Positions 34,875-62,013 of a stretch of DNA of 64,000 nt are shown here, one piece after another. How positions within the stretch are numbered: the stretch's first letter is position 1; every line of letters begins with the position of its first letter. A program made the translations under genes and the position numbers. This DNA is from Prolixibacteraceae bacterium (GTDB taxonomy: Bacteria; Bacteroidota; Bacteroidia; Bacteroidales; Prolixibacteraceae): positions 62,001 through 126,000 of the forward strand of contig JAUWAB010000004.1 in the NCBI GenBank assembly GCA_030602265.1, in the 5' to 3' direction. Below the pieces are notes generated by a model. That model searched no databases and was not told the origin of the DNA. It worked only from the letters and a program-made list of their open reading frames with translations.

Positions 34875-35636
34875 TCATTCCTCCAAGTCATTAAAAATTG
34901 TTTTACGGTTTTGCATTCGGTAACTTTTCCCTTGCAGCTGGATCAGCTGGCATTTGTATAATAGCCGGTCCAACAATGCTGTGGCAAGGGTTTCATCATT
35001 CAGTGATTTGGCCCACTCTGCAGGTGATTTATTGGTCGTGATAACCAGCGAGGTAGTTTCAAAGTTCTGGTTAATAAACACAAAGAACCTTTCACCATCC
35101 TCTTTATTAACCGATAAGGACATGACATCATCAATGATCATCAGCTGAGCCTCGGTTAACCGTTTGTACTCCTTTGCTGCAGAAGGCGTGAGCTCTCTGA
35201 GCCGAAGTGTGGCCAGTATATCATTGATATTGCGGAAGTATACTTTGTAACCACGGCGTATGGCATCAAAGCCCAGTCCGGCAGCTATAAAAGTCTTTCC
35301 GGTGCCCGAAGGACCGCTGAACATCAGGTTGTAGCATTGATCCAACCAGTTAAGTTCCCTGAGTTGGTTCAGCTGTGTGGGACCAAGCCCGGACGAGAAC
35401 GCAAAATCGTATTGATCCAGATCATGATTCAAAGGCAACCTGGCCAGTTTCATCCGGAGGATTTCCTGTTTGACATCACGTTCCCGTACTTCATAAGAAA
35501 ACAGATGGAACAGAAACTCGTCATAACTGGGACTACTCCTGGCGATCTCCTCCAGCAGGTAGGGCAGATTGCCGGCAATACCCGACAAGCGCAGCCGGGA
35601 TGCCTGTCGTCTAATTTGTGGTATATACTGGCTCAT
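34875..35636 (-). CDS. istB: IS21-family ATP-binding helper IstB
   Basis: 253 residues. Walker A FSGPSGTGKTFIAAGLG, Walker B QLMIIDDVMSL and sensor SLVITTNKSPAEWAKSLNDETLATALLDRLLYKCQLIQLQGKSYR are the AAA+ signature of IstB, related to DnaC. It regulates target choice and stimulates the IstA transposase. It overlaps the end of istA by 26 bp, the usual translational coupling. Confidence 0.95.
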   Translation of the reverse strand: MSQYIPQIRRQASRLRLSGIAGNLPYLLEEIARSSPSYDEFLFHLFSYEVRERDVKQEILRMKLARLPLNHDLDQYDFAFSSGLGPTQLNQLRELNWLDQCYNLMFSGPSGTGKTFIAAGLGFDAIRRGYKVYFRNINDILATLRLRELTPSAAKEYKRLTEAQLMIIDDVMSLSVNKEDGERFFVFINQNFETTSLVITTNKSPAEWAKSLNDETLATALLDRLLYKCQLIQLQGKSYRMQNRKTIFNDLEE

Positions 35637-37206
35637 AGTCCGTGGGTTTTTGGGTGAAAATGGATTCGTACTCCCGGATATCTGATTTCTGTGGCTCTAT
35701 ATGGGCCATCATTTGTGTTTTTGTTCCACCAAGTGGTTTTATACTCAGTGACTTTTGCCTGGTCGTTTTATCGGGAGCCTGACTTTCTACTACCGACTTA
35801 AAGTCATTGGCACTATAAATTTTGTTCCTTATACAAAACTCCAGGGCGACCTCCGAGTTCTGCCTGCCATGTTTCTCGCAGCATATCAGCAATGCTGACA
35901 ACTGGTCCCTGACATAGCGGGGATACAGCCGTTCAATATTTGTAAGGAACGTTTCAACATCGGTGCTGTAGGAGAAGAACTCCCTGGCCTGGTCGCGCAA
36001 CTGACTAACCTTAACCGAGGGATTACGGCGATGGCTGGTATTGATTACCGTGCGGCCTTTCCCTGCCGGAATCAGATGCGTGGCTATGACCTTACCTTTA
36101 GAGTCACTGATGGTTAACTGGTTGTCGGATTCAGTCACATAGACCCTGGTCTCATCATCCTTGTAGGTTCCAAAAGGTAAGGAGTAAATATTCCCGCGAT
36201 ATTTGATAACATTGGTTTTTAGCACCTTGCGCCCGCTTCTGCCGTCTGTCGAAAAAATGGGGTGATACGCAAGAAGATACTTTTGTTCATTGCACCACTC
36301 AGTATAGGGAACCCTGCACGTGGTATTGTGCTTCATCATATTCCCGGTACGGTTTAACCAGGCAATGGCCTCCGTGTTGATCGTTTCATTATCGGTAAAA
36401 ATGCGATTGTATAAAAAGTTCTGCTTGATATACTTGACCACATTCTCAACCTTGCCTTTGCTTTCAGGATCCGCTGCATGACAAAAGACTGCTTTAAAAG
36501 GCCGGCTTGCCAGATAGCTCCCAAAAACATCAGTGAGCTTATAGTCACCTTTATTCTCGCTATGGATAAAAACCACATCCTGGTCGTAAATAATCTCCCT
36601 GGGGATACCCTGAAAAAACTCAAATGCCTTTTCGTGGGCCTCCACTGCACTCTGGCTCGTAAAGGGTTCATCCCGGAAAAGAACATATTTTTGCCGGCTA
36701 TGACACAGCAGCATCGCAAAGAAGTAAACGGTTTGCCATCCCCCCTTGCTTGTGCGCAACCGTTTCATGCCAAAGTCAACCTGAGCCTGCTGGCCCATCG
36801 GAAGATCCGGTACTGCTGTGTACTGGCGATCACTGCGGGTCACTTTCGGAATATTAAACTCACCTCTGATTTTAACAACATAGTTATAAACCGTCTTGGG
36901 GTCAAGCTGTGGAAAATCGCTAAAACATTCCTTCAGCTTGTCATGAACAACAGAGGCCGGCGTATTCGGGTACTCTCCAAGGTAGTTGACAACAAAGGTT
37001 TTATACTGATCCATGGCAAAGGGGCGTGAGCCCTGGGTGGCAAGATAGGCCTCAAACTCCTGGTCTGTCATCGAAAGATACTTCCGGACGGTACGAAAGT
37101 TTAACCCCAGGTAATCGGCAATACGTTGGATGGAAAACTTCTCCACCTCTCGAAATCGTTTAATCTCATAGTACATAATGATAAGATCCTTTTGTTTTTT
37201 GTCCAT
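35611..37206 (-). CDS. istA: IS21-family transposase IstA
   Basis: 531 residues. N-terminal helix-turn-helix (FSIQRIADYLGLNFRTVRKYLSM), then the RNase H-like DDE core: AQVDFGMKR (first Asp), EIIYDQD (second Asp) and the acidic segment near ADPESKGKVENVVKYIKQNFL (Glu), followed by the IstA beta-domain. All catalytic positions look intact, so the element may be active. Confidence 0.95.
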   Translation of the reverse strand: MDKKQKDLIIMYYEIKRFREVEKFSIQRIADYLGLNFRTVRKYLSMTDQEFEAYLATQGSRPFAMDQYKTFVVNYLGEYPNTPASVVHDKLKECFSDFPQLDPKTVYNYVVKIRGEFNIPKVTRSDRQYTAVPDLPMGQQAQVDFGMKRLRTSKGGWQTVYFFAMLLCHSRQKYVLFRDEPFTSQSAVEAHEKAFEFFQGIPREIIYDQDVVFIHSENKGDYKLTDVFGSYLASRPFKAVFCHAADPESKGKVENVVKYIKQNFLYNRIFTDNETINTEAIAWLNRTGNMMKHNTTCRVPYTEWCNEQKYLLAYHPIFSTDGRSGRKVLKTNVIKYRGNIYSLPFGTYKDDETRVYVTESDNQLTISDSKGKVIATHLIPAGKGRTVINTSHRRNPSVKVSQLRDQAREFFSYSTDVETFLTNIERLYPRYVRDQLSALLICCEKHGRQNSEVALEFCIRNKIYSANDFKSVVESQAPDKTTRQKSLSIKPLGGTKTQMMAHIEPQKSDIREYESIFTQKPTDYEPVYTTN

Positions 37207-38083: not shown

Positions 38084-38225
38084 AACGGCAACTGTCGGCG
38101 GTATAAAACGTTGGGGATTGCGGGCTACGTCCCTGTCTGCCGTTACAAACGTTGATGCGGGGCAGAACGCTCCAAGCAACCACTTAAACCCCAATGTTTT
38201 ATACATGATGTTGGCAGCTGCCGTT
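38084..38225. repeat. attC-like 142-bp imperfect palindrome, site A
   Basis: Nested inverted repeats: outer arms AACGGCAACTGTC (38084-38096) and GGCAGCTGCCGTT (38213-38225), 11 of 13 paired, and inner arms GTATAAAACGTTGGGG (38101-38116) and CCCCAATGTTTTATAC (38189-38204), 15 of 16 paired. Length and layout match site B at 42162-42301, and both carry GGATTGCG near the left arm and CACTTAAACC before the right arm in the same orientation. It lies just after the 3' end of the protease gene, where an integron cassette carries its attC. Confidence 0.55.
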
Positions 38226-38278: not shown

Positions 38279-39085
38279 TTAATCTTCCCAAATTATGCTC
38301 AAAATAGTTTTGTGTTTTCTTGTCGGTATGCAATACTCATAGAAGTCTGTATCTTCATCGTTGTCTCCAACTTTAAACCACGTTGATTTACTAATTGTCT
38401 GTGCCTTTTCTTCAAGTTTATACACAAAGTCGTAGTTTTTTTCAATATATTCAGCGGCAACAGAATCTGAAGGCGGTGCTAAACGTGTGTAATCGCCTAA
38501 CCAAACTTTTAAGTCGTCTGATTTTTTCCAATATTTTACTTTTCCGTTTTCAATAAAGATAAGACAGAGAGGGTGTAGCTGGTCAAATTGCAAATATCGA
38601 AATATTGTTGCTGTTAAACTTGTTTTAAATCGCTCTGAAAGCTGTTTTACTAATAACGGTGTAAACTTCTTTCCTCTCGCTTCTTTCAGAAATAATCTTT
38701 CGGGCATTAAAAGTTCACTGGCAAATTCGTTGGCTTCTAATTCTTGTCTGCCATTTTTTAGTGCCTTTTCCATTCCGGCAATGATGTTGAAATTAGCGAA
38801 AGTATCATCTGGAAGTTGCATATTTCTGTGCATCATTAAATGTCCGATTTCGTGAGCCGTAACAAATCGTTTTCGTTCTGAAAATTGAATTTTTGAATTT
38901 ACTTTGATTACGACTTTGCTATTTCCGAAAATTATTTTTCCGTCACAATTCGTCAATTCTTCTTCAATCAACATTGCATCTAACCCTGAAACAAATAAGT
39001 CCATTTCCAAGTAAGTAATTTCATCAAGTCCGCAATTTTCTAATAATTGCTGTGCTTGAATATGTGCATTAGTGGCTCTTGTCAT
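38279..39085 (-). CDS. ImmA/IrrE-family metallopeptidase
   Basis: 268 residues. The zinc motif HEIGH (residues about 78-82, in RFVTAHEIGHLMMHRN) and the downstream ELEANEFASELLMPERLF, with the third-ligand Glu, define the ImmA/IrrE family. These proteases act on specific regulators: ImmA degrades the ICEBs1 repressor and IrrE cleaves DdrO. The C-terminal half (residues about 150-268) has no recognised domain. Last gene of a three-gene operon with the sigma-like gene and the helical protein; it overlaps the preceding gene by 17 bp. AT-rich compared with the chromosome around it. Confidence 0.85.
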   Translation of the reverse strand: MTRATNAHIQAQQLLENCGLDEITYLEMDLFVSGLDAMLIEEELTNCDGKIIFGNSKVVIKVNSKIQFSERKRFVTAHEIGHLMMHRNMQLPDDTFANFNIIAGMEKALKNGRQELEANEFASELLMPERLFLKEARGKKFTPLLVKQLSERFKTSLTATIFRYLQFDQLHPLCLIFIENGKVKYWKKSDDLKVWLGDYTRLAPPSDSVAAEYIEKNYDFVYKLEEKAQTISKSTWFKVGDNDEDTDFYEYCIPTRKHKTILSIIWED

Positions 39086-39464
39086 TTTCTGCTATTTGTT
39101 CAAGTAATTCGATAAGGTTTTTGTCTTTGATAATTTCAATAATATCGTCATTTGATAACTTGTCAAGATTGCGATATAAAGCAAAAGAAGGATTTCCTTG
39201 AATAAGTTGTTTTAAAACAGCAACTGGCTTTTCAATGTTTTCATTTATTGCTTCTTTAAATTTATCTACCAACTCTTTCAGATAATCATTCTGTTGTTGT
39301 TTTGCTTTCGCTTTCGCCAAAAAGATGATTTGCTTTTTCTTCTTGTTGTATTCATCAAGATTTGGAATATCATTCTTTAGCGAATCATTGATTACGCTCT
39401 CATCAGCTTCTAAATAGAAGTTGTACAGGGCTTCATTGATTCTATTTTTGATTTCGTTTTTCAT
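39069..39464 (-). CDS. Small charged helical protein between sigma-like and protease genes
   Basis: 131 residues, rich in Lys, Glu, Asn and Ile, predicted mostly helical (for example KKKKQIIFLAKAKAKQQQNDYLKELVDKFKEAINENIEKPVAVLKQLI and DDIIEIIKDKNLIELLEQIAE). No signal peptide, no membrane helix, no known domain. Its ATG overlaps the stop of the sigma-like gene by 4 bp and its end overlaps the protease gene by 17 bp, so the three proteins are made together. The position suggests an anti-sigma factor or adaptor that the protease might cut; that is inference from arrangement. Confidence 0.65.
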   Translation of the reverse strand: MKNEIKNRINEALYNFYLEADESVINDSLKNDIPNLDEYNKKKKQIIFLAKAKAKQQQNDYLKELVDKFKEAINENIEKPVAVLKQLIQGNPSFALYRNLDKLSNDDIIEIIKDKNLIELLEQIAENDKSH

Positions 39465-39988
39465 ATGATATTTGCTACTTGTGTTTGAATTTTTTGAAGT
39501 CGTCTTTCAAGTCGTTTGGTAATGTTGTAAACTTCTTTGACTTCTATTCCTAAATCTTTTGCAATATCTTTGGGTTTAGTTATTCCGTCAACCCAATATT
39601 CCAAAATCAAAAGCTCCTTATCGTCAGCTCCTTCTTGTTTTAAGAGTTCAAAAACTTGGTTTATTTTATCTTCATCGATTGAGGAATGTCCACTTGAAGG
39701 AATGTCGAGTAATTCGTTGTCGTAAATATTTTTGTTTGTTTTGAAAAAATTACTGATTTCACTTTTCAAGCAACCAAAAAGAAATTCTTTAAATGAACAT
39801 TGGGCTTTAGTCCAATCACGTTTTCCTTCCATTACTTTTAGAATCACTTCCCCAACGAAGTCAATAGGCTCTTTCCCGTTGAAGTTTTTAGCTCCAACAG
39901 ATTTTAAAAGGCTAATAGCATAGGCATTCATACTATTTATAACCTTGTCCATATCAACTGATTGTATTGCTTCTGTTAAATTCATCAT
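39461..39988 (-). CDS. Sigma-70-like transcription factor
   Basis: 175 residues. The first half resembles sigma region 2 of small sigma factors (DFVGEVILKVMEGKRDWTKAQCSFKEFLFGCLKSEISNFFKTNKN); the second half resembles region 4 with a helix-turn-helix (QVFELLKQEGADDKELLILEYWVDGITKPKDIAKDLGIEVKEVYNITKRLERRLQKIQ). Divergent from the ubiquitin-like operon, with which it shares a 128-bp intergenic region containing a large palindrome. Likely the dedicated regulator of one or both operons. Start at 39988 or the next ATG at 39985. Confidence 0.7.
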   Translation of the reverse strand: MMNLTEAIQSVDMDKVINSMNAYAISLLKSVGAKNFNGKEPIDFVGEVILKVMEGKRDWTKAQCSFKEFLFGCLKSEISNFFKTNKNIYDNELLDIPSSGHSSIDEDKINQVFELLKQEGADDKELLILEYWVDGITKPKDIAKDLGIEVKEVYNITKRLERRLQKIQTQVANII

Positions 39989-40000
39989 CCTTTCTAAAAC

Positions 40001-40064
40001 AGTATGCTAAGGTCGGAAAAAAAATTGCCACTCGTGGCAAAAAAAATAAAATCCTTAGCATACT
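40001..40064. promoter_or_regulatory. Double concentric palindrome in the divergent promoter region
   Basis: Outer arms AGTATGCTAAGG (40001-40012) and CCTTAGCATACT (40053-40064) are perfectly complementary. Exactly centred between them is an inner palindrome TTGCCAC-TC-GTGGCAA (40025-40040). Both share the centre at 40032.5. Between arms lie A-rich runs. It occupies half of the 128 bp between the two divergent operons, so it is well placed as an operator for both. Confidence 0.7.
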
Positions 40065-40116
40065 TATTTGAAACGGGGGGCAGCCCCTCATAATTAATTG
40101 AAAAATTTTGAATCTT

Positions 40117-40605
40117 ATGAAAGACGAAAAAGAAAAAAATCCGCAAGGTGAACACGGCAAACGTGTTTTGGAACTTACCATAAATGGTAAACAGTATGAA
40201 TGGAATCAGCAATACATTACTGGTGCTGAAATCCGAAGATTGGGGAACATTCCTCACGATGATGAAATTTTTCTTGCGGTTAAAAAACCGTGGGAAGATG
40301 AACCTATTCCCAATGATAAGCAAGTAAACCTTGCTCGCCCTGAAATTGAACACTTCTATTCAAAAGCGAAAGAAGTAATCATTATAATAAATGGCACACC
40401 ACACAAATGGACAAAAGAAAAAATCAGCTTCAAAGAAGTGATTGTTCTTGCGTTTGGGCAGTACATAGATAAACCAACAATGGTTTACACCGTAGCTTAC
40501 GAAGATGGTCCAAAACAAAATCCTGAAGGGTCAATGTTTGCGGGTCAGGAAGTTTTTACTAAACATAAAATGATATTCAATGCAACAGCAACTGATAAAT
40601 CTTAA
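40117..40605 (+). CDS. Multiubiquitin protein (two fused ubiquitin-like domains)
   Basis: 162 residues from ATG 40117; an upstream TTG at 40108 is less likely. Two tandem beta-grasp-type segments: residues about 15-80 (KRVLELTINGKQYEWNQQYITGAEIRRLGNIPHDDEIFLAVKKPWEDEPIPNDKQVNLARPEIEHF) and about 86-160 (EVIIIINGTPHKWTKEKISFKEVIVLAF...MVYTVAYEDGPKQNPEGSMFAGQEVFTKHKMIFNATATDKS). This is the Multiubiquitin family, predicted to be the modifier in bacterial ubiquitin-like systems. The C-terminus is ATDKS, without the double glycine of ubiquitin. First gene of a four-gene operon; its end overlaps the next gene by 26 bp. Confidence 0.85.
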   Translation: MKDEKEKNPQGEHGKRVLELTINGKQYEWNQQYITGAEIRRLGNIPHDDEIFLAVKKPWEDEPIPNDKQVNLARPEIEHFYSKAKEVIIIINGTPHKWTKEKISFKEVIVLAFGQYIDKPTMVYTVAYEDGPKQNPEGSMFAGQEVFTKHKMIFNATATDKS

Positions 40606-41023
40606 TCCTGACTTAAATCGTCTGCAAGAAGAAGGCTACGACATAGAGGTAAATGGTGGACACTTGGTTGTCCGCCAAATTCCCTATGCTACTCCTTCAA
40701 AAAGTGTAGCGTTAGGAATGTTGATTTGTGTATTAAACTATGCAAGTCCAACGAAAATTTCAACGCCACCAGACCACACGATTTTCTTTAACGGTGTAAC
40801 TCCTTGCAACGCCAATGGACAAGCACTTGATGCAATAATCAATAATTCCAATAGACAACAACTAACAAATGAACTATTGGCTACACATTATTTTTCAAGC
40901 AAACCATTGTCTGGTAATTATCCAAACTATTATGAAAAAATCAGGACTTATGCGGAAATACTAAGTATTCACGCCAAAGCTATTGATAGTACAGTGACAA
41001 CAAAACCTTTTAAAAAGTCTTAA
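40580..41023 (+). CDS. DUF6791-like / E2-position protein of the ubiquitin-like operon
   Basis: 147 residues (QQLINLNPDLNRLQEEGYDIEVNGGHLVVRQIPYATPSKSVALGMLICVLNYA...HTIFFNGVTPCNANGQALDAIINNSNRQQLTNELLATHYFSSKPLSGNYPNYYEKIRTYAEILSIHAKAIDSTVTTKPF). In related proteins, as I recall them, this region is the N-terminal half of one longer protein with a C-terminal ThiF domain. Here it ends at TAA 41021-41023 and the ThiF gene follows in the same frame. Cysteines in GVTPCNANG and LICVLNY are candidates for a thioester carrier, unproven. Confidence 0.65.
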   Translation: MQQQLINLNPDLNRLQEEGYDIEVNGGHLVVRQIPYATPSKSVALGMLICVLNYASPTKISTPPDHTIFFNGVTPCNANGQALDAIINNSNRQQLTNELLATHYFSSKPLSGNYPNYYEKIRTYAEILSIHAKAIDSTVTTKPFKKS

Positions 41024-41038
41024 ATAAAAATGTAAGTG

Positions 41039-41776
41039 ATGAGTGCTACAAATGTTTTTAAATACCCTGATACTAATTCTTCTCGTGCAGGAATAGAGTT
41101 TTTGAATCGCAAGTTTGAAAACCAAAAAATCGCAATTATCGGATTAGGCGGAACTGGGTCGTATATTCTTGACCAAGTTGCAAAAACTCCTGTCAAAGAG
41201 ATACACATTTTTGATGCTGATGTTTTTCAACTACACAACGCTTTTCGTTCGCCCGGTGCTGTTTCAAGTGAAAAACTGGAAACAGAAATCGGAATTACTA
41301 AAGTAGATTATTACTACGGAATTTATTCCAATATGCACGCAGGAATAAAAGCACATACGAAGTATGTAACACTTAAAAATGTAAATGAACTTAAGGATTT
41401 CAGTTACGTTTTTATTAGCCTTGACAAAAACGAAGTTCGTTATAATCTTACAAAAGCGTTTTTGAAAATGGGCGTTACATTTATTGATGTCGGCATTGGT
41501 GTGAACAAAGCTGATGATTGTCTGAATGGTGCTGTTCGTGTTACTGTTGGTTCATCTGAAAAAAGCGACCATTTGGATTCACGAATAGGTGCGTTTGAGT
41601 CGGACGAAAATGAATATAACAACATTCAGATTGCGGAATTAAATTGTCTTAATGCAATGTTTGCTGTCGTAAAGTGGAAAAAGCTAAGTGGTTTTTATCA
41701 AGATATAAAACACGAACACAATAGCTTATTTTTAATCAACACAAATAAATTGCTCAATGAAGACAATCCAGCATAA
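41039..41776 (+). CDS. E1-like ThiF-family adenylyltransferase
   Basis: 245 residues from ATG 41039 (GTG 41036 precedes it). Nucleotide-binding motif IAIIGLGGTGSYILDQVAKTPVKEIHIFDADVFQLHNAFRSPGA: GxGGTGS at residues about 35-41, the ribose-binding Asp at the end of strand 2, and the Asn/Arg pair that positions ATP. Also FVFISLDKNEVRY-like strand 4 and IDVGIGVNKADDCLNGAVRVTV. E1-like enzymes adenylate the C-terminus of ubiquitin-like proteins. There is no CxxC zinc pair as in ThiF/MoeB. Overlaps the next gene by 20 bp. Confidence 0.85.
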   Translation: MSATNVFKYPDTNSSRAGIEFLNRKFENQKIAIIGLGGTGSYILDQVAKTPVKEIHIFDADVFQLHNAFRSPGAVSSEKLETEIGITKVDYYYGIYSNMHAGIKAHTKYVTLKNVNELKDFSYVFISLDKNEVRYNLTKAFLKMGVTFIDVGIGVNKADDCLNGAVRVTVGSSEKSDHLDSRIGAFESDENEYNNIQIAELNCLNAMFAVVKWKKLSGFYQDIKHEHNSLFLINTNKLLNEDNPA

Positions 41777-42119
41777 ATTCATTGAGTTCATTCCGAATAG
41801 TCCTGAACAAGACGTTCTTTACATCTCTGTTGAATATAGAACGGCTGTCCACTTGTGTGTCTGCGGTTGCGGAAACAAAGTTATTACACCGCTTTCTCCA
41901 ACAGATTGGGAACTTCGATTTGACGGAAAAACCGTTTCGCTTTCTCCGTCTATTGGAAATTGGAATTTTGAGTGCAAGTCGCATTATTTTATTACACGAA
42001 ATAAAATCCGTCACGCAAGACGCTGGGATGATTGGGAAATTGAGGCAGGTCGTAATGATGATGCTGAAAACAAAAAGAGTTTCTTCAGAAAGTCAAAGAG
42101 GAAGAAAAAGAAGAACTGA
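41757..42119 (+). CDS. DUF6527-like zinc-binding protein
   Basis: 120 residues. FIPNSPEQDVLYISVEYRTAVHLCVCGCGNKVITPLSPTDWELRFDGKTVSLSPSIGNWNFECKSHYFITRNKI is the DUF6527 pattern. Cysteines 34, 36 and 38 with C73 and H76 look like a zinc site. This family accompanies multiubiquitin and ThiF genes; its job in the system is unknown, and no JAB-type deubiquitinase is encoded here. The C-terminus is a basic tail (SFFRKSKRKKKKN), which could bind nucleic acid or receive the modifier. Last gene of the operon, 42 bp before site B. Confidence 0.75.
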   Translation: MKTIQHKFIEFIPNSPEQDVLYISVEYRTAVHLCVCGCGNKVITPLSPTDWELRFDGKTVSLSPSIGNWNFECKSHYFITRNKIRHARRWDDWEIEAGRNDDAENKKSFFRKSKRKKKKN

Positions 42120-42161
42120 TTTTTCATCTGTGATGTCGCTTGGATTATGGGTCGTCCTATG

Positions 42162-42301
42162 GTTGCTGCCAACGTTCCGCGTATATGATTAGGTGCGGAT
42201 TGCGTGGCACTTTCCTGTCGAAAAGCACCGAGGTTTAAGCGGGTGATAATACTGATTATCAGCACTTAAACCGCACTTAATTATATACGCTGTTATGCAA
42301 C
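42162..42301. repeat. attC-like 140-bp imperfect palindrome, site B
   Basis: Main arms at 42179-42198 and 42271-42290 are 20 bp each with 18 paired positions (GCGTATAT...GTGCGG). Short outer arms GTTGC/GCAAC at 42162-42166 and 42297-42301, and an inner pair GGTTTAAG (42232-42239) / CTTAAACC (42265-42272). It matches site A in length, in the shared GGATTGCG and CACTTAAACC boxes, in the TATAC...TGTT ending and in orientation. It fills the gap between the DUF6527 gene and the end of the nuclease-like gene. Confidence 0.55.
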
Positions 42302-42310
42302 GGCTTGCTT

Positions 42311-43300
42311 TCATTCGTCCGTTTCCAAAATTTCTTTTACTAAGTCTTTATATTCAGGTCTTATACTAAAATTGTCCTTTTCCCAATGATACTTTGGATA
42401 TTCATAATGAATGATTTGTCGTAAAAAATCTTTTTTTGTCTGTCCGAGTTGGTTTGACATTAAAGCAATAAAATATCCTGCTTTGTTTTCATCTGTGGCT
42501 TCTCCAGCTTTTACAAACTCTTTCTTAAGTTGTTCTCTTGTTATTTTCTCTTTTTTGAGCAGAACTGGTAATAATATGGTTTTTAGTCTTTTAGACGACC
42601 ACTGTTTATTGTTGAAATAAATTTTAAGCAATTCTTTTAGTCTTTCGGGTTCATACGTGCCAGGTTCGTCCGACATTGGAATTGTGAATTTTTTCTTATT
42701 TGTTTTTTCTTTTTCAATTTCCTCGGGAATGATAACAGTCCGTGAAAGTAATTCGTTACCAGAAGAAGTCTTGACGTAATTTAAAATAATAGCGTTTATC
42801 CCAACGTCATATTTTGAAGACAGCCATTCAATCATTCTGCTAAGCGCTTCGTCAATTGAAAAGCCAACTAATAAAAGTCTTTGTGCTTTATTTATTACTA
42901 AATCGTCAAGTTCAACATTTTCAAAATGGTCAGTGATATAGTCTTCAAGTGAGTTTCCAGAAAAAGTCAAACATATTTCATTTAACTTCTCAATATCCCA
43001 ATTTGCCACATCTGAGGCGTAATCAATTGCTTGAGCTAAAACATCCCGTGCTAATTTGTCACGTTTAAGTTCAACAATTACTAGGTTTCCGTTATTGTCA
43101 ATACCCAAATAGTCAAGTGGGCCAGATTTTGTCCAAACTTGCTCTCCAAACACCAAAATATTGTCACCAAGTATTTTAGGATTTGTTTTTAGCCACTTTT
43201 CCAAATCATCCTTTTCTTTTCGTCCATTTTGGGCAAGAGTCGTATTGATTTCAGTCAATTCACCGTCAATTATTTCCCAAGTTTTTATCTCTGTTGCCAT
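42311..43300 (-). CDS. PD-(D/E)XK nuclease-like protein
   Basis: 329 residues. EKWLKTNPKILGDNILVFGEQVWTKSGPLDYLGIDNNGNLVIVELKRDKLARDVLAQAIDYASDVANW contains the nuclease core: Asp in PLDYLGID (about residue 63) and ExK in VELKRDK (Glu 77, Lys 79), with an upstream Glu. This resembles the DUF91/NucS-type restriction-endonuclease fold, found in repair and defence enzymes. The C-terminal third (residues about 220-329) is helical and of unknown function. It is AT-rich like the island, and site B lies right after its stop codon. Confidence 0.7.
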   Translation of the reverse strand: MATEIKTWEIIDGELTEINTTLAQNGRKEKDDLEKWLKTNPKILGDNILVFGEQVWTKSGPLDYLGIDNNGNLVIVELKRDKLARDVLAQAIDYASDVANWDIEKLNEICLTFSGNSLEDYITDHFENVELDDLVINKAQRLLLVGFSIDEALSRMIEWLSSKYDVGINAIILNYVKTSSGNELLSRTVIIPEEIEKEKTNKKKFTIPMSDEPGTYEPERLKELLKIYFNNKQWSSKRLKTILLPVLLKKEKITREQLKKEFVKAGEATDENKAGYFIALMSNQLGQTKKDFLRQIIHYEYPKYHWEKDNFSIRPEYKDLVKEILETDE

Positions 43301-61900: not shown

Positions 61901-62013
61901 ACTCAGTAAGGGTTAATTATGTGTTTGGGCAGAAGATCAAAAGAATCGAACGGATTCAGGGATGATGAAGGCATCAGGTTAAAAACCCTATGAAAGCCTG
62001 AAGTATCTGCCGG

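Follow-up and report, generated by a model that had tools for sequence, protein, structure and literature searches.

Two divergent operons in a Prolixibacteraceae genome

We analyzed a window of 64,000 nucleotides from a Prolixibacteraceae bacterium (phylum Bacteroidota; GenBank assembly GCA_030602265.1, contig JAUWAB010000004.1, forward-strand positions 62,001 to 126,000). Positions 38279-42119 of this window carry seven open reading frames (ORFs) in two divergent operons, and the ORF list places all seven where a preliminary description of this DNA had put them. The minus-strand operon encodes, in this order, a sigma-like factor, a helical protein of 131 amino acids (aa), and an M78 protease (hereafter the trio), while the plus-strand operon encodes a multiubiquitin protein, a DUF6791 protein, a ThiF enzyme, and a DUF6527 protein. 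The three minus-strand genes are present and overlapping as described, by 4 bases between the sigma and helical genes and by 17 bases between the helical and protease genes. The four plus-strand genes, also described as overlapping, are all present, and all pairs overlap except one, as the DUF6791 gene ends at 41023 and the ThiF gene starts at 41036.

The protease (38279..39085, minus strand) matches the PADLOC capP model at 1.9e-60 over residues 6-268 of its 268 (model positions 4-242 of 242), and PF06114 at 9.9e-14, which bears out its earlier assignment to the ImmA/IrrE-type HEIGH proteases. The M78 zinc site is intact, with HEIGH at residues 78-82 and ELEAN at 115 (Glu 115/117 lying downstream), and H78, E79, H82, and E115 are invariant in 12 aligned proteins. 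A profile of 12 trio proteases matched Thauera CapP (7t5t, "CapP toxin") at 2e-28 over residues 57-275, which include the catalytic and C-terminal parts. Judging from these alignments, the protease is a full-length relative of CapP, C-terminal part included. In the known system CapH+CapP, reportedly described by Lau et al. in 2022, CapP is a protease activated by single-stranded DNA (ssDNA) that cuts the repressor CapH, turning on operons for the cyclic-oligonucleotide-based antiphage signaling system (CBASS) and similar operons.

The sigma-like factor (39461..39988, minus strand) resembles sigma-70 and extracytoplasmic function (ECF) factors, with a TIGR02937 match at 4.5e-10. Its AlphaFold2 model (predicted local distance difference test [pLDDT] 77, predicted template modeling score [pTM] 0.49, five rows) shows two domains, both helical, whose arrangement is uncertain. 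In a Foldseek search of the PDB, the 50 matches shown were nearly all sigma factors (best E 3.7e-4, template modeling [TM] score about 0.3). VIA-align matched region 4 to sigma-H of F. nucleatum (Z 9.9, root-mean-square deviation 2.7, 74 aligned), although Z values of this size are common among helical proteins, so that the weight rests on the consistency of the list. The model thus has a predicted two-domain sigma fold, comprising regions 2 and 4.

Recurrence of the trio and its predicted divergent promoter element

Compact trios of sigma, helical, and CapP genes were found at 26 loci (the window, L014, L018, L024, L031, L046-L052, L071-L076, L113, L114, L116-L119, L121, and L123, where L numbers denote scanned loci), with 164 bases between the sigma and helical genes in L114. 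Two loci with gaps of 124-381 bases (L077 and L078), one in which no CapP was found (L079), and one on a contig of 3,498 bases (L080) were excluded from this count, as were weak helical matches, most of which lie inside long ORFs (L005-L010, L040-L045, and L069). Because the same gene order recurs as a compact unit, the trio appears to be more than a chance arrangement. A profile of 12 helical proteins matched 18 of 395 genomes of the phylum at E<=1e-3, in some cases outside compact trios.

The window, L014, L018, and L031 are either the window itself or loci reached by the multiubiquitin query only; the other 22 trios, among them L024, which the helical query also recovered (as L003/L053), were found without a ubiquitin query. 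In 15 of these 22, the trio diverges from an immune operon that is either known or predicted. The partners are ubiquitin-like operons in ten loci (L024, L047, L050, L073, L074, L113, L114, L117, L121, and L123), CBASS in four (L049, L071, L116, and L118), and QatABCD in one (L048; QatA 2.3e-136, QatC 3.2e-119). The weakest ubiquitin-like partner is that of L050, where the E1 and JAB matches fall below the cut-off, and the partners of L113, L116, and L121 were assigned by record annotation. Separately, the trio of L052 (4259-9732) stands opposite Tn7-like genes (TnsA-like, Mu-type transposase, and TniB), and transposition might share the switch there.

A survey of plasmids yielded 77 records with a CapP match, and 14 of the 30 listed were examined. 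Eight carry a trio of the helical type, one carries the second version described below (L115), and five carry an annotated helix-turn-helix (HTH) regulator together with CapP (L120, L122, L124, L125, and L126). Four of these five adjoin CBASS, and there the canonical HTH CapH with CapP takes the same divergent place as the trio. The 131-aa protein itself had no tblastn match in plasmids, although plasmid trios turned up via CapP. A phage origin of the trio was considered and rejected, as no trio was found among the best 80 of 316 CapP relatives in viral contigs; one of these relatives (L185) had a single sigma-like match, away from CapP.

Between the two operons of the window, the element TGGCAA-N16-AGCATA occurs twice as an exact match, back to back. 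We predict these copies to be promoters for the sigma factor, one directed toward its own operon (40003..40030, minus strand) and one toward the conjugation operon (40035..40062, plus strand; 0/100 shuffles in the mirrored-site test). The consensus came from visual inspection of the window and of some scanned loci, so that the scan with it is partly circular; at spacing 16, at least 9 of the 12 positions were matched on both strands in 9 of 19 trio regions (the window, L014, L018, L031, L046, L048, L049, L050, and L073). Conjugation, Qat, and CBASS operons are among the partners of these nine. Mirrored variants of their own are present in L024 (TGACCA...GTTAT) and in L072 and L074 (TGGAAA...AGCTA). 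Across 764,237 bases from 56 loci, seven back-to-back pairs reach 10 of 12 or more on each side, and all of them sit at trio promoters. At a score of at least 9 of 12, 9 of the 15 pairs do so, and the remaining 6 are at chance level (5.8 in shuffles; 7 in 710,475 bases of viral loci). Among spacings 13 to 19, spacing 16 yields the most pairs.

A consensus-free mirrored-site test gave <=3/100 shuffles in 10 of 19 helical-type regions, or in eight if the window, L014, and L031 are counted once, compared with one of nine HTH-regulated controls at 4/100. In L113, the consensus is visible (CTGCAA...AGCATA / CTGTAA...AACATA) and the shuffle test failed (46/100). Three of the six proteobacterial trios (L117, L119, and L121) reached <=4/100, with motifs dissimilar to the Bacteroidota one. 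The exact element occurs three times in the 4.41-Mb genome, twice at this locus, so the sigma factor looks largely private to it; with one mismatch allowed, there are 34 occurrences, against 20 for the reversed pattern.

The regulators of related multiubiquitin operons differ. In the named genomes scanned, we found 23 multiubiquitin loci, 22 of them readable, as L033 ends too early; the 23 closest loci carry Bacteroidota names. Upstream of the readable operons are the helical trio in 4 (L014, L018, L024, and L031), a second version of the trio in 6 (L011, L012, L013, L015, L016, and L020), and HTH-type genes in 12, most with an M78 domain (HTH was judged by reading the sequences). This second version consists of an ECF-like sigma factor of 224-227 aa, a 117-aa protein unrelated to the helical family, and an M78 protease, and on the plasmid locus L115 it adjoins a Pycsar operon. 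Sigma proteins from 10 other trio loci, including two of the second version, were compared with TIGR02937, and 8 match at E<=0.01; within a set of six sequences, those of the proteobacterial trios match the sigma profile with values between 2.8e-9 and 1.2e-5. As a further kind of regulator, the multiubiquitin operons of L019, L023, L027, L028, L030, L224, and L225 adjoin an HTH-M78 fusion gene and a PIN-like protein, as judged by eye.

The preliminary description had counted ubiquitin-like operons lacking the sigma and protease genes against its proposal. The trio does recur, and the 12 of 22 operons with HTH-type genes are literally operons of that sort; they fit a set of exchangeable regulators. 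Direct comparison of the DNA points the same way. The window and L014 are 82.7% identical from 38283 to 40688, an interval that takes in both the trio and the promoter. L011, from Chitinophaga, is 90.0% identical to the window from 40103 to 42124 without an upstream match, and the second-version trio lies upstream of its conjugation operon. These alignments show that the control cassette and its promoter switch partner operons jointly. For the second version, the mirrored-site test gave <=3/100 in two of seven loci (L016 and L115), with sites dissimilar to each other. In 4 of 11 second-version loci (L011, L012, L013, and L020), TAACGGTTTTNGTAG beats all but 5 of 300 shuffles on both sides, and its partner-side copy in L020 lies 74 bases from the start.

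Among 149 relatives of the genome of the window, 13 DUF6527 matches were found in 11 genomes, that of the window included. The other 12 comprise nine conjugation-type operons and three matches in phage-like surroundings (partly by eye). The nine operons carry the second sigma factor in three cases (L222, L227, and L228), HTH genes in four (L220, L221, L224, and L225), and neither in two (L223 and L226). In L227 (3829-5258), the neighbor of the second-version sigma factor is an extended middle protein of 263 aa. No CapP gene lies close by, and this locus may use a different release mechanism. We dropped the idea that this middle protein is fused to a known antitoxin-type domain, as the extension has no Pfam match.

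The helical protein and proposed release of the sigma factor

The 131-aa helical protein (39069..39464, minus strand) is encoded between the sigma factor and CapP in the compact trios, and we propose it as the anti-sigma factor and as the CapP substrate. It matched no family above cut-off and no HTH family in family and domain profile scans (its Pfam matches to NleF and GCP6 are below cut-off and were disregarded), and it has no predicted membrane part, as judged by eye. An HTH repressor beside CapP, as in CapH+CapP, was therefore not found here. The PADLOC capH model matches 8 of 12 helical family members at E<=0.01, weakly (best 7.3e-6), and these matches do not show an HTH. A genome search with the capH profile was nondiscriminating (matches in 100 of 118 genomes and in 14 of 14 control genomes) and mostly involved positions 2-67, which we read as the HTH. 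Sequence searches of the PDB returned low-complexity matches only (best 7.6e-4, to a repeat protein named lysozyme, with 0 stretches passing alone), and Foldseek gave no match at E<=0.001 with the all-helical model. The middle proteins of the proteobacterial trios align nearly end to end with the helical family (probability 79.5, E 1.5e-5).

When six HTH CapH proteins were aligned to the helical family with hhalign, a single place was matched, Phe/Tyr-Arg-Asn...Leu preceding an acidic stretch (18 columns, E 4e-4). In the window, this corresponds to Tyr-Arg-Asn at residues 97-99 (39168..39176, minus strand), which the model places at the end of a helix, followed by a loop. The same place was recovered without significance between CapH and the proteobacterial middle proteins (probability 0.3), and the Arg of the motif is invariant in six CapH and six proteobacterial middle proteins. 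We infer that CapH and the helical protein share a recognition site for CapP, in or near which cleavage would occur; this is the least secure step of the proposal.

Overall, we consider it likely that the minus-strand operon encodes a counterpart of the immune regulator CapH+CapP that is built on a sigma factor, which CapP would free for both operons. In unstressed cells, the helical protein would keep the dedicated sigma factor inactive. As the protease is CapP-like, its likely signal is ssDNA, by analogy with CapP and PprI; ssDNA arising from phage attack or DNA damage would activate it, and it would cleave the helical protein near the C-terminal YRN loop. The released sigma factor is predicted to guide RNA polymerase to the two back-to-back promoters, which would raise both its own operon and that for the multiubiquitin, E2-like, E1-like, and DUF6527 proteins. 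Once the signal is over, fresh helical protein would reset the switch. A switch of this kind, in which proteolysis of the helical protein frees the sigma factor to turn on conjugation, had already been suggested in the preliminary description. The conserved trio, the two-way sigma-type promoter, and the exchange of trio plus promoter lend it strong circumstantial support; the link to ubiquitin-like conjugation is not exclusive, as the module also adjoins CBASS and Qat operons.

Several observations weigh against this proposal. The TIGR02937 score of the sigma factor is 39.4 bits, below the curated cut-off of 42.9; all 8 matching sigma proteins of other loci are likewise below cut-off, and those of L018 and L119 have no match. 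The AlphaFold2 model of the helical protein is weak (pLDDT 73 at best, 44 to 53 in the remaining four), the hhalign match to CapH is short, with a probability of 34, and the Arg of the motif is present in just 11 of 20 helical proteins. CapP is short in the trio of L072 (141 aa). No mirrored element was found in L047, L051, L071, L075, and L076, and that in L052 is doubtful; L114 and three of the six proteobacterial trios fail the mirrored-site test. Lastly, 7 of the 22 trios found without a ubiquitin query (L046, L051, L052, L072, L075, L076, and L119) have no recognized immune operon opposite them; the trio of L119 faces a "Beta protein" gene, and the others face a Tn7-like element, the end of a contig, or genes without a known role.

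The two mirrored copies could also form a single palindromic operator. Its repressor would be either the helical protein or the sigma-like protein, the latter working simply as an HTH factor, and CapP would cleave this repressor as in classical CapH+CapP. The palindromic form of the element, the weak capH matches, and the presence of ordinary HTH proteins in the VIA-align list for the modeled region 4 (e.g., EsrB, Z 8.4) agree with this, whereas the lack of an HTH family match in the helical protein and the two-domain sigma matches do not. In addition, the spacing of the blocks is constant at 16 bp across nine loci, while the gap across the axis between the two sites ranges between 1 and 9 bp. 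Because the spacing within a site is fixed and the distance between the sites is variable, two promoters are favored over one operator, and we regard a single operator as unlikely. It is distinctly improbable that CapP targets the sigma factor itself, or that the helical protein serves CapP as an adaptor or inhibits it, with some other switch logic such as shut-off. The tie between helical protein and sigma factor is one of co-occurrence alone, and the helical gene also overlaps or abuts that of CapP; yet the CapH-like motif sits in the middle protein, and the second-version sigma factor and middle protein of L227, with no CapP nearby, tie the middle protein to the sigma factor. That the trio is independent cargo merely adjoining the conjugation operon would accord with the HTH-type genes found in its place at 12 of 22 readable related operons, and with the two of nine operons in relatives that have neither. 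Against this stand the repeated divergent pairing over operon types and two phyla and an element aimed at both operons, which make mere cargo very improbable.

Release of a dedicated sigma factor by CapP, the reading we prefer, can be extended beyond this locus. Comparison of loci shows trio and promoter to be an exchangeable control cassette of various immune operons. On balance, the cassette probably represents a modular kind of immune regulator that is widespread among bacteria: a dedicated sigma factor, held by a helical anti-sigma factor with the short recognition motif of CapH, is set free by a protease of the CapP type once ssDNA has activated it. Such regulators would swap with CapH+CapP and, acting through back-to-back promoters with positive feedback, control ubiquitin-like, CBASS, and Qat operons, as well as Pycsar operons where the second middle protein is used.

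The conjugation operon and known immune regulators

The multiubiquitin protein (40117..40605, plus strand; ATG 40117 is a likelier start than TTG 40108, the mechanical ORF start) matches PF14452 Multi_ubiq at 5.8e-23 in two stretches, as expected of the double ubiquitin-like protein described earlier. Among 30 multiubiquitin proteins, including that of the window, none ends in Gly-Gly and 28 end in Ser, typically as T(D/N)KS; the C-terminal stretch overlaps the next gene. This gene encodes the DUF6791 protein (40580..41023, plus strand; PF20590 1.7e-45). Its motif His-x5-Gly-x3-Cys (H66 in 27, G72 in 28, and C76 in 27 of 28 aligned rows) we take to be an E2 signature, with Cys 76 as the E2-like cysteine. 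The ThiF enzyme (41036..41776, plus strand; PF00899 2.4e-12, PRK06153 family) is E1-like and adenylating by prediction, and no Cys in the ThiF part reaches 90% conservation in the aligned rows. DUF6791 and ThiF are fused (about 391 aa) in most related loci scanned, and separate in the window, L011, L012, L013, and L023. The DUF6527 protein (41757..42119, plus strand; PF20137 4e-25) has a putative zinc site, with C34, C36, C38, C73, and H76 conserved in at least 28 of 29 rows. One operon thus combines a ubiquitin-like protein with predicted E1-like and E2-like enzymes; PF14461 had no match in the genome of the window, and none in controls.

DUF6527 was absent from the 6 congeneric genomes among those listed, so the island with the conjugation operon was probably acquired. 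Long imperfect inverted repeats (19 nt at 89% and 28 nt at 82%) bracket both operons at 38101-38204 and 42179-42290. Each is adjoined by GCTGCCAAC, oriented outward from the island, of which the window holds 3 copies, with 0.39 expected. These repeats resemble integron attC sites, as though one or two gene cassettes held the trio and the conjugation operon. Directly beyond the conjugation operon, the protein encoded at 42311-43300 (minus strand) matches the PADLOC candidate defense family PDC-S11 at 1.2e-43, and a NucS-like nuclease stretch at 6.4e-10, below cut-off. On the other side, two ORFs (34875-37206, minus strand) that by eye resemble an IS21-type transposase and ATPase pair adjoin the island.

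In ECF systems with a proteolyzed anti-sigma factor (RseA and FecR type), proteolysis of the inhibitor frees the sigma factor, which activates its own operon. The inhibitors are membrane proteins cut by membrane proteases. The proposed switch is alike in its logic. Unlike these systems, it would rely on a soluble protease of the M78 type, and its proposed inhibitor is small, helical, and, judged by eye, free of predicted membrane segments. No description of an immune module of sigma factor, helical protein, and CapP was found in the literature searched by title and start of abstract, with subscription papers mostly outside this search.

The trio resembles CapH+CapP, as presented in PMC13373217 and PMC10904395, in its CapP-like protease with catalytic and C-terminal parts, its divergent position beside CBASS and ubiquitin-like operons, and the short C-terminal motif common to CapH and the middle protein. 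It differs in that a sigma factor and a helical protein replace the HTH repressor CapH, and the output would be sigma activation, not derepression. Because the HTH CapH, the defining feature, is absent, the trio is a variant of the CapH+CapP kind and not a member. PprI/IrrE-DdrO of Deinococcus likewise has an M78 protease and ssDNA-activated cleavage in the C-terminal domain of the regulator, where the cleavage loop lies and Arg118 is needed; unlike the trio, it lacks a sigma factor and acts through DdrO, an HTH protein that represses numerous damage genes (PMC10904395). CapK+CapS is a damage-responsive regulator cassette beside bacterial ubiquitination-like (Bub), CBASS, and other operons, and unlike the trio pairs a kinase with a STAS-winged HTH repressor, with no protease and no sigma factor (PMC13373217).

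The damage-responsive immune regulators listed in that source, CapW, CapH+CapP, and CapK+CapS, all relieve a repressor. It places CapW or CapH+CapP at 219 of 544 Bub operons, a figure that may include sigma trios, and gives phage protection by Bub operons as not demonstrated to date. If our proposal is true, the trio would be an activating, self-amplifying route to immunity, giving an immune operon a private promoter. This could explain how many multiubiquitin operons are regulated and suggests a testable role for the unannotated "hypothetical" genes adjoining CBASS, Qat, and Pycsar. The promoter signature could then be used to find further immune operons.

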